Assembly (NCBI GenBank): GCA_002694885.1
Contig: NZNM01000074.1
Location: 1-43,892 of the forward strand
Direction: 5' to 3'
Length of the DNA: 43,892 bases
Source of the DNA: Opitutaceae bacterium
GTDB lineage: Bacteria > Verrucomicrobiota > Verrucomicrobiia > Opitutales > Opitutaceae
This document shows positions 8,370 to 10,804 of this stretch, piece by piece. Within the stretch, counting starts at the first letter, position 1, and each line of letters starts with the position of its first letter. The position numbers and the translations under genes are program-made. The notes under the pieces were generated by a model. The model searched no databases. It saw nothing but the letters and a program-made list of their open reading frames with translations, and had not been told where the DNA came from.

Positions 8370-9203
8370 ATGAAATTCGCAATTTGTAACGAAACCTATC
8401 AAGGCTGGGACTTGGCAAAGACTTGCGAGAGCGTCCGTAAAACTGGATACGAGGGCCTCGAGATTGCCCCGTTCACCTTGAATGAGGATCCCCGCGATAT
8501 CACGACGGCGGAGGCGGAGGCAGTCGGCAATACCGTTCGCGATCACGGTCTCGAGGTTGTCGGCCTTCATTGGCTGCTGGTGAAACCCGAAGGCATGCAT
8601 CTTACCACCCCAGACAACGGGATTCGCCAAAAGACCCTCGATTTCGGGCGACACTTAGCTGACCTATGCGCAGCCATGGGAGGGGATGTCATGGTTTGGG
8701 GAAGCCCAAAGCAGCGAAATGTATCCGAGGATGACAACTACGACGACGCATTTCAACGGGCCGCAGATTTGCTCCGTTCGCTAGGCGAGCACTGCCAGTC
8801 TTGTGGAGTGTCGGTCGCCATGGAGCCACTGGGAACCCAGGAAACGAATTTCCTTGCTTCCGCCAAAGAGACTATCTCTCTTATTGACCGTATTGATAAC
8901 CCCAATATCAGGCTACATCTCGATGTGAAAGCGATGTATGCCGAGGGCGGTTCGATTCCTGGAATTATCGAATCGAGTAAAGACTATACCATTCACTTCC
9001 ATGCCAACGATCCGAATTTGCTCGGTCCCGGCATGGGGGCCGTTGATTTCAATCCCATCGCCAGAGCTCTCGAGTCGAGTGGCTATGATCGCTGGGTGTC
9101 TGTCGAAGTTTTCGACTACTCACCCGGGGCAGAAACGATCGCCCGGGAAAGCCTCAATAACCTCAAAAACGTATTCACCCAAACCCACACGAAATCCCTA
9201 TGA
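8370..9203 (+). CDS. Sugar phosphate isomerase/epimerase (cytoplasmic TIM barrel)
   Basis: A 277-residue AP endonuclease-2-fold protein without signal peptide. The metal-binding set is intact: Glu152 (AMEPLG), Asp185 (LHLDVKAM), His209/His211 (HFHANDPN) and Glu246 (VSVEVFDY). The family includes keto-sugar epimerases, hydroxypyruvate isomerase-like enzymes and inosose/3-keto sugar-processing enzymes. The exact substrate is unknown. Its stop overlaps the start of the Nramp-like gene by four bases (ATGA), so these two are translationally coupled in the operon 8370-12542. Confidence 0.9.
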
Positions 9204-10804
9204 GCAACGAACCATCCGATAACAAACATGCCATGCTCGCCGAAGCCGAGGGCGCCCCTCTGCTGAGGCGGTTCGGAATTTATACCAAGCTTTCAGGCCC
9301 CGGTTGGCTCCAAGGAGCGATCACCCTGGGAGGCGGCTCGCTCGCTGGCGCCCTCTACCTCGGCGTCATCGCAGGATTCGGGCTCCTTTGGCTCCAGCCC
9401 CTGGCCATGCTTTGCGGCATCATCATGCTGTCGGCTATCGCCTACGTGACGCTGTCGACCGAAAAAGCTCCCTTCGGACTGGTCAATCAGCACCTCTCCC
9501 CTGCGCTCGGCTGGGCTTGGATGATCGCTACCATCATGGCCAACATAGTCTGGAGTATGCCTCAGTTCAACCTGGGACGGGCCGCCGTACAGGAAAACCT
9601 GCTACCTGCAGTGGGTAACAGCCATGCTTCGACCACAATCATTTGCCTCATCCTGCTCGGTATATCCTTTTTCGTCAACACGCTCTACGAGTCAGAAGGC
9701 AAGGGTGCCAAGACCTTCGACCGCATCATCAAAGTGATGGTCGGCCTGATCGTGCTGTCCTTCATTCTCGTTGTCGTCACCCTGGCGACAACTGGCGGTA
9801 TCGACTGGGGCACAATCTTCGGGGGCATCATTCCTAATCCCAAGCTCCTCGTCGCTCCCGCTGCTAGCTACGCCGACCTGATTGCAGCGTCCAGCCAACC
9901 GGAGTGGTGGACTGCCAAGATCGTCAATGATCAGCGCGACATCATCATCGCCGCCTTCGGCACCGCGGTCGGCATCAACATGACCTGGCTGCTGCCCTAC
10001 TCGCTTCTCAAAAAGCGCTGGGGCCGCAAGCATCGCAGCTTCTCCATCTTCGATTTGTCCATCGGACTCTTCATTCCCTTTTTCCTCGCTACGAGCTGCG
10101 TGGTCATTGCCGCCGCTTCTCAATTCCACGTGCAAACTGGCGATGTCGATCCAAACTCTCCCGCCGCGGCAGGCACTATCGCTCAGCTCGCAACCGCTCA
10201 TCCGGGCGTTCCGAACGTCGCCGACAAGGAGCTCGCCCTGACTCTGGTCAAACGCGACAATTTCCAACTCGCCACTGCCTTAGAGCCTCTCGCCGGAAAA
10301 GTCATTTCCCAGACGATCTTCGGTTTTGGAGTTCTCGGAATGGCTCTTTCGACAATCATCATTCTCATGCTGATCAACGGGCTCGCCTTTCAGGAACTGC
10401 TCGGAAAGCCCGGCGACAAGGGCGCTTATTTCTTGGGTTGCGCCGTATCCGGAATCGCAGGGTTCATCGGGCCCTTCATTTGGTCCGGAGCATCGGCCGC
10501 ATTAGCCATCCCCACATCCGTAATTGGCGGTTCGCTCATCCCCATCGCCTACTTCACGTTTCTGCTAATGATGAATTCCAAGAAAGTTCTGGGTGAACAC
10601 CGTCCCGAAGGAACCGCTCGTTTGATCTGGAATATCCTGATGGGCGTCGCGACCGGAATCGCTACTCTCGGATCGATTTGGGTGCTTTCTGGGAAGGCCC
10701 ACTTCAATAGCTGGCACGGAATGATTCCAGCCGCAGGCCTTGGGCTCTTGGTCATTTTGTTTATTGTGGGCGCAGCCTCGTTTATCAAAAACGAAAAAAG
10801 CTAA
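9200..10804 (+). CDS. Nramp-fold membrane transporter lacking the canonical metal-binding motifs
   Basis: A 534-residue polytopic protein with about eleven or twelve transmembrane helices. The overall pattern fits the Nramp (SLC11) family. The TM1 motif DPGN is replaced by GPGW (residues 33-36), and the TM6 MPH motif appears as LPY (265-267, in [15 protein letters not shown]). These are the residues that coordinate Mn/Fe in true Nramps, so divalent-metal transport is doubtful. A soluble insertion near 310-370 is probably extracytoplasmic. It is coupled to the isomerase upstream (ATGA) and to the oxidoreductase downstream (TAATG), suggesting it imports the compound those enzymes metabolise, or a cofactor metal. 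Database annotation would call it a divalent metal cation transporter. Confidence 0.8.

Follow-up and report, generated by a model that had tools for sequence, protein, structure and literature searches.

The operon and its transporter

The window, by which we mean the whole stretch of 43,892 nucleotides from an Opitutaceae bacterium analysed here, carries on its forward strand a gene for an Nramp-related transporter of 534 amino acids (9200..10804), set between two genes for carbohydrate enzymes. The upstream gene (8370..9203, + strand) encodes an AP_endonuc_2 TIM-barrel protein (Pfam, 144.8 bits) that resembles 5-keto-L-gluconate epimerase and D-tagatose 3-epimerase; it scores 110.7 bits with the NCBIfam model IolO, below the cut-off of 300, and 69.6 bits with TM_0416 in the PDB. 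The downstream gene (10804..11850, +) encodes a Gfo/Idh/MocA oxidoreductase (hereafter GFO; Pfam, 111.4 bits), whose best PDB match is 3q2k (193.1 bits) and which also matches the glucuronide-3-dehydrogenase 8tdi (85.8 bits). The initial annotation described the transporter gene as overlapping carbohydrate-enzyme genes on both sides, and we confirm this: its start overlaps the TIM-barrel gene by 4 nt (ATGA, 9200-9203), and the ATG of the GFO gene overlaps its stop codon (TAATG, 10802-10806). The upstream overlap is kept in 10 of the 11 loci from this genus and the downstream one in only 5 of 11, the others having a gap of about 40-200 nt or a contig end.

Several other genes surround this core. 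A HAD-like hydrolase follows downstream (11883..12542, +; Pfam HAD_2, 35 bits) and has a counterpart in 3 of the 10 other loci from the genus. Upstream, a protein with a signal-like N-terminus and no Pfam match (7430..8251, +) has a similar gene in 9 of these 10 loci; its assignment as a 3-keto-disaccharide hydrolase was not borne out, with a profile probability of 0.2% and one of the nine input rows (window 6721-7551) being a wrong ORF. A second AP_endonuc_2 TIM-barrel protein (5394..6332, +; Pfam, 69.7 bits), with an N-terminus that looks twin-arginine-like by eye, is matched by a similar upstream gene in 5 of the 10. Between these two, on the opposite strand and upstream of the operon, lies an SDR that resembles L-fucose dehydrogenase (6526..7317, -; NCBIfam FucosDh, 364.8 bits, cut-off 300), with a close relative in 6 of the 10 other loci; sulfatase genes occur in three genus loci, and together these genes hint at sulfated fucose-containing sugars. 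Elsewhere in the window, a 3-keto-disaccharide hydrolase gene (DUF1080, 124.8 bits; 41644-42372, -) lies 31 kb from the transporter, and the region 22463-28708 (-) holds oligopeptide-type ABC transporter genes for a solute-binding protein, two permeases and at least one ATPase.

The transporter exceeds the gathering score of the Pfam Nramp family PF01566 (84 bits, cut-off 29.8) and misses the equivalog cut-off of the NCBIfam model Nramp_1 (31.8 bits, cut-off 50). Searching the PDB with this single sequence gave no match at E <= 1, and a profile of 33 clade sequences gave none at E <= 0.01, while profile-profile comparison of the clade with canonical Nramps gave probabilities of 98.8-99.6%. An AlphaFold2 model, made from an alignment of the window protein and eight relatives at 81-84% identity, was of low confidence (pLDDT 43, pTM 0.32), and the LeuT (APC) fold, a 10-helix inverted repeat in which TM1 and TM6 are broken, is predicted from the Pfam family only.

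A clade outside the canonical Nramps

Homologues were found in all 10 of the other genomes of the genus that were searched, at 81-84% identity, and in one further genus at 78%. Counting the window genome, 20 of 57 near relatives have one, and so do, at E <= 1e-20, 34 of the 387 genomes sampled from the phylum. A plasmid search with the window protein returned one weak match (E 0.1), a DPGN/MPH Nramp, and the 20 pattern matches in a scan of viral contigs included no relative of the transporter. In all, 50 homologous ORFs were found. Linkage was counted on the 42 that score above 350 bits; L105, which is truncated, and seven more remote sequences (L106-L111, L114) were left aside. For comparison we used 19 canonical Nramps, comprising 18 of 23 strong Nramp loci (L123-L145) and one from a plasmid (L121); the rows dropped were L124, L126, L129, L143 (wrong-frame ORF) and L131 (over-long), and L148 had no ORF.

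A tree of 76 proteins sets the 33 clade rows apart from the others by a branch with support of 94/86 (slightly below the program's mark of 95/80). They unite with five distant relatives at 100/100, the branch being 3.27 changes per column long, and the canonical Nramps, all 19, form a group at 100/100 with the window clade outside. The tree is rooted for drawing only, and the program warned that long-branch joins, that of the window clade included, may be false, so that the nearest group is unsure. Judged by its sequence, the window transporter belongs to a deep clade of the carriers termed Nramp-related or G-motif proteins, falling outside the canonical clade in the tree and having neither metal motif in the aligned columns. 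Nramp-related proteins are described as paraphyletic with respect to canonical Nramps and as lacking both motifs, and all but two of their groups as uncharacterised (PMC12873925). Because of this paraphyly we do not describe the differences at the metal site as a loss, as the initial annotation did; in our tree the clade sits on its own long branch.

The placing of the two metal motifs had to be revised. The initial annotation took GPGW (residues 33-36) for the counterpart of DPGN and LPY (265-267) for that of MPH; the ORF at 9200-10804 and both motifs at these residues are indeed present in the translation, but neither corresponds to a metal motif. Canonical Nramps open TM1 with GPG or GPA (G in 19/19, P in 19/19, then G in 14/19 or A in 5/19), and DPGN follows eleven residues further on. 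GPGW (9296..9307, +) is this conserved TM1 start. The DPGN of all 19 canonical Nramps aligns to residues 44-47, GGGS (9329..9340, +), in three MAFFT modes, and direct profile-profile alignment agrees with this TM1 register. In TM6, the same three modes align the MPH of all 19 to residues 258-260 (GIN), and a profile-profile alignment through an intermediate group places it at 260-262 (NMT), both within the stretch GINMT (258-262; 9971..9985, +). Direct profile alignments of the clade to canonical Nramps leave TM6 gapped, or misalign it when forced to be global; the TM6 register, which rests on the multiple alignment and the intermediate group, is uncertain by two residues. LPY (9992..10000, +) lies downstream of the MPH column, was paired with MPH in no usable alignment (three MAFFT modes and the intermediate-profile alignment), and is variable in the clade at L265 and Y267.

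In these corrected columns the canonical ligands are absent throughout, and to this extent the replacement of both metal motifs stands. All 38 aligned sequences (33 clade rows, with the window included and near-copies among the 42 omitted, and five of the seven distant ones) have Gly44 in place of Asp, Ser47 in place of Asn, Gly258 in place of Met and Asn260 in place of His; Gln122 (9563..9565, +) occupies the conserved TM3 Glu column, which is Glu in 19/19 canonical Nramps, and Met261 is invariant (38/38). In the window transporter the TM3 Asp column is Ser119, so that neither acidic TM3 residue of the proton path is present, and Ser440 and Leu446 stand in the columns of the canonical TM10 Gln. 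The clade thus shares PF01566 and the GPG/GPA start of TM1 with canonical Slc11/Nramp proteins (MntH, DMT1) but DPGN, MPH, the TM3 Asp/Glu and the TM10 Gln are all absent from its corresponding columns. It is most improbable that the protein is an exporter, a sensor or a non-transporting remnant lying in sugar operons by chance, as the TM1 and TM6 positions are deeply conserved and the matches in all ten other genus genomes searched are near full-length without internal stops.

The main rival to sugar import is metal supply, that is, a divalent-metal importer with an unusual site that would provide Mn2+, Mg2+ or Ni2+ to the isomerases and epimerases of the sugar operons. Membership of PF01566 is in line with it, and so is the window genome (97% complete), where none of the three Nramp-family genes (0/3) has DPGN and no canonical Nramp importer was found. 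Two published proteins offer precedents: the Nramp-related YcsG/MntG of B. subtilis, encoded in a 5-oxoproline operon, is reported as an Mn2+ importer whose overexpression raised cellular Mn (PMC10448178), with MntG assigned to the G-motif 3 group (PMC12873925), and an NrmT-group protein of Acidobacterium capsulatum likely carries mainly Mn (PMC4072509). Against metal import stand the columns of D, N, M, H and TM3 E, all of which are non-acidic in 38/38 sequences. NRMTs (EleNRMT, Mg2+), which are Nramp-related proteins too, also lack the canonical Met and Asn and most proton-path residues, but they keep the TM1 Asp, as part of the signature DxxG-TxxA/T, and the TM3 Glu, where the window clade has Gly and Gln in 38/38, and mutation of that Asp is reported to have strongly compromised transport (PMC8806188). 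In place of this signature the window transporter has GxxS at 44-47 and Thr255/Gly258. We regard metal import as unlikely, also in view of the genes that accompany the clade.

Carbohydrate genes around the clade

A GFO gene lies within 2.5 kb of the transporter in 30 of the 42 clade loci, on the same strand in 29 of them. Counted by genus unit this is 16 of 26, where copy numbers in the genomes predict about 0.8; this background, of 5-38 copies per genome in 24 genomes, was obtained with a single C-terminal domain family (PF22725) and is perhaps too low, and with the highest single-genome rate applied to every unit the chance of 16/26 is < 1e-12. In these units, gene copies that share a genome (a pair, in two cases) and two congeneric species (L086, L094) are counted separately; with the two species merged the count is 16/25. 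The distances of 2.5 kb, used here, and 6.5 kb, used below, were set after inspection of the loci. Per fully covered flank, GFO genes occur in 30/79 at 0-2.5 kb, 10/77 at 2.5-5 kb and 2/75 at 5-7.5 kb. Since the genes from which the neighbour profiles were built (six either side of the transporter) span all three distance rings, this fall-off is unlikely to be an artefact of the profiles. Of the 42 loci, 23 have a high-scoring counterpart (>=400 bits) to the window GFO within 5 kb, and in L069 and L072, two genus loci that miss it, the contig ends at or just past the transporter.

Other carbohydrate genes recur within 2.5 kb in the 42 loci: 3-keto-disaccharide hydrolase (DUF1080) in 13, sulfatase in 9, SDR in 9, and TIM-barrel proteins of one type in 13 and of the other in 8, with either type in 19. 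It is thus not the case that all such transporters sit beside both TIM-barrel and GFO genes (19/42 and 30/42, respectively), as the initial annotation had anticipated. GFO is missing from the 2.5 kb around the transporter in ten of the 26 genus units, and in L078, L079 and L081 neither the profiles nor the scan of a few neighbours revealed a sugar gene. The linkage to sugar genes, the absence of which would have spoken against the initial reading, is nevertheless far above chance, and we conclude that the clade is linked to carbohydrate genes strongly, but not universally.

Signal-like N-termini were called in 9/15 DUF1080, 2/3 DUF7133 cytochrome-c and 6/6 sulfatase neighbours (17/24 in total, some low scorers among them having doubtful start codons), compared with 0/24 TIM-barrel, 0/2 glucuronate isomerase (UxaC) and 3/38 GFO proteins. 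The layout is that of extracytoplasmic breakdown, then import, then cytoplasmic oxidation or epimerisation. A similar arrangement is described for the 3'-ketolactose lac cluster of Caulobacter crescentus, which combines a transporter, two epimerases, a reductase and an exported DUF1080 protein; it differs in that the text of the paper has no mention of Nramp (0 occurrences; PMC9007349).

A link to hexuronates is found in part of the clade. A UxaC gene lies within 6.5 kb of the transporter in L088, L089, L090, L091-L093, L096 and L103, which make up six genus units where 0.12 would be expected by chance. All 28 genomes checked contain the UxaC family, 22 of them as one match only, and the neighbour is the sole full-length copy in five genomes (G287, G413, G279, G317, G156), where the G287 copy was matched in two pieces and a short second match in G156 is a fragment. 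Among the members scanned of these UxaC operons, D-mannonate oxidoreductase exceeds its cut-off in L091 and L103, gluconokinase in L089, L091 and L096, and a putative nickel hexonate epimerase in L091, L096 and L103; the L103 operon also has 6-phosphogluconate dehydrogenase and a phosphofructokinase-family gene. D-mannonate oxidoreductase also occurs in L083, together with mannonate dehydratase but with no UxaC nearby. The remaining genomes checked, that of the window included, have UxaC elsewhere, and the transporter flanks examined in the window's genus contain none. The UxaC operons offer clear partners for determining the substrate class. Phosphofructokinase-family genes adjoin clade or near-clade members in two distant genomes (L103:7097-8374, L108:6704-8011).

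These neighbours bear on metal supply in both directions. The TIM-barrel epimerases depend on metals, as does the hexonate epimerase, whose NCBIfam name includes nickel, and their presence near the transporter, with that of mannonate dehydratase, fits a carrier that serves them. The cluster with the nickel enzyme is, however, confined to 5/42 loci (3 members confirmed by NCBIfam), and the commonest neighbour is GFO, an enzyme that is not known to need a metal.

Candidate substrates

We consider it fairly probable, on the strength of gene context and aligned residues, that the clade transporter imports a hexuronate, a keto-sugar or a related sugar acid. We favour this reading because the layout of exported breakdown, import and cytoplasmic enzymes is like that of the Caulobacter 3'-ketolactose cluster, and a sugar acid, keto-sugar or similar compound is our best guess because the linkage is far above chance and the metal-site residues are absent. 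The sugar acid and the keto-sugar named in the initial annotation therefore stay in place as the best guess, although the change of substrate that it also suggested is itself only surmised. In such a pathway, exported hydrolases, sulfatases and cytochrome-c-type proteins would attack a glycoside outside the cytoplasm, the carrier would take the released sugar into the cell, and the cytoplasmic GFO and TIM-barrel epimerases would pass it to central metabolism; in several genera glucuronate isomerase, mannonate oxidoreductase, hexonate epimerase and gluconokinase would join in the cytoplasmic steps. The binding site for the substrate would lie in the unwound stretches of both helices, in TM1 at the glycine-rich GGGS and in TM6 at the invariant GINM. 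We infer the fold, direction, substrate class and coupling ion of the transporter, and the substrate may differ between genera.

We also propose, more tentatively, that the deep clade, observed here in Verrucomicrobiota, may be the first recognised branch of the Nramp superfamily to carry carbohydrates, taking up hexuronates or 3-keto-sugars released by external 3-keto-glycoside hydrolases, with GGGS and GINM in place of the metal motifs. No published link of Nramps with sugar or uronate genes was found among the open-access titles and starts of abstracts listed. The initial annotation spoke of a new role for the fold, which is too broad, as an organic substrate, 5-oxoproline, has already been proposed for PxpT/YcsG from the growth of deletion mutants (PMC13274462); the novelty would lie in carbohydrates, for which we found no such proposal. 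If the clade does carry sugars, it would fill the uptake step of the 3-keto-glycoside and hexuronate pathways in Verrucomicrobiota and could be compared with canonical Nramps to see how the metal site arose among organic-solute carriers.

PxpT is also the precedent for another alternative, in which the carrier imports a different organic solute (a carboxylate, an amino acid or a nitrogen compound) and the sugar genes are its partners in only part of the clade. PxpT/YcsG (MntG/PxpG) resembles the window transporter as an Nramp-family carrier in a catabolic operon, and in C. glutamicum PxpT, the YcsG homologue, is reported to be needed for growth on 5-oxoproline, with metal transport not excluded (PMC13274462). 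Nramp-related genes elsewhere adjoin oxoprolinase/hydantoinase, amidase and thiolase genes, and some clade loci have no sugar genes. The two systems differ in their operons, with pxpABC there and carbohydrate genes here: PxpA, PxpB and PxpC families are absent from the eight window proteins scanned (5394 to 13397) and from the scanned neighbours of the relatives. As it is sugar enzymes that recur beside the clade, much more often than the background predicts, we hold import of such a solute to be improbable and retain sugar or sugar-acid import as the preferred reading.

Plasmid Nramp relatives, where annotated by name, are all called 'Nramp family divalent metal transporter' among the lists examined, a name that would probably be wrong for the window clade. 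An organic-catabolism gene adjoins the carrier in 5 of 13 non-canonical plasmid loci, the neighbours being a family 43 glycosyl hydrolase, a thiolase, an amidase, a hydantoinase/oxoprolinase and a dihydrodipicolinate-synthase-family gene, and the other 8 of 13 have nothing telling. On a Haloarcula litorea plasmid (L155, 3998-7210), the gene that immediately precedes hydantoinase/oxoprolinase genes is Nramp-related and reads GPGT in the DPGN column, and its product is a candidate for another organic-solute carrier annotated as a metal transporter. On the Microscilla plasmid pSD15 (L116, 3242-5739), an Nramp-related gene of another group, with GSGE in this column, begins 8 nt past a family 43 glycosyl hydrolase gene, a separate second link to sugars. 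The two further Nramp-related genes of the window genome, G000:C123 (L112:7426-8685) and G000:C10 (L113:7884-9215), have GAGD and GSGE in the DPGN column, and sulfatase-like genes, recognised by eye, lie close to both.
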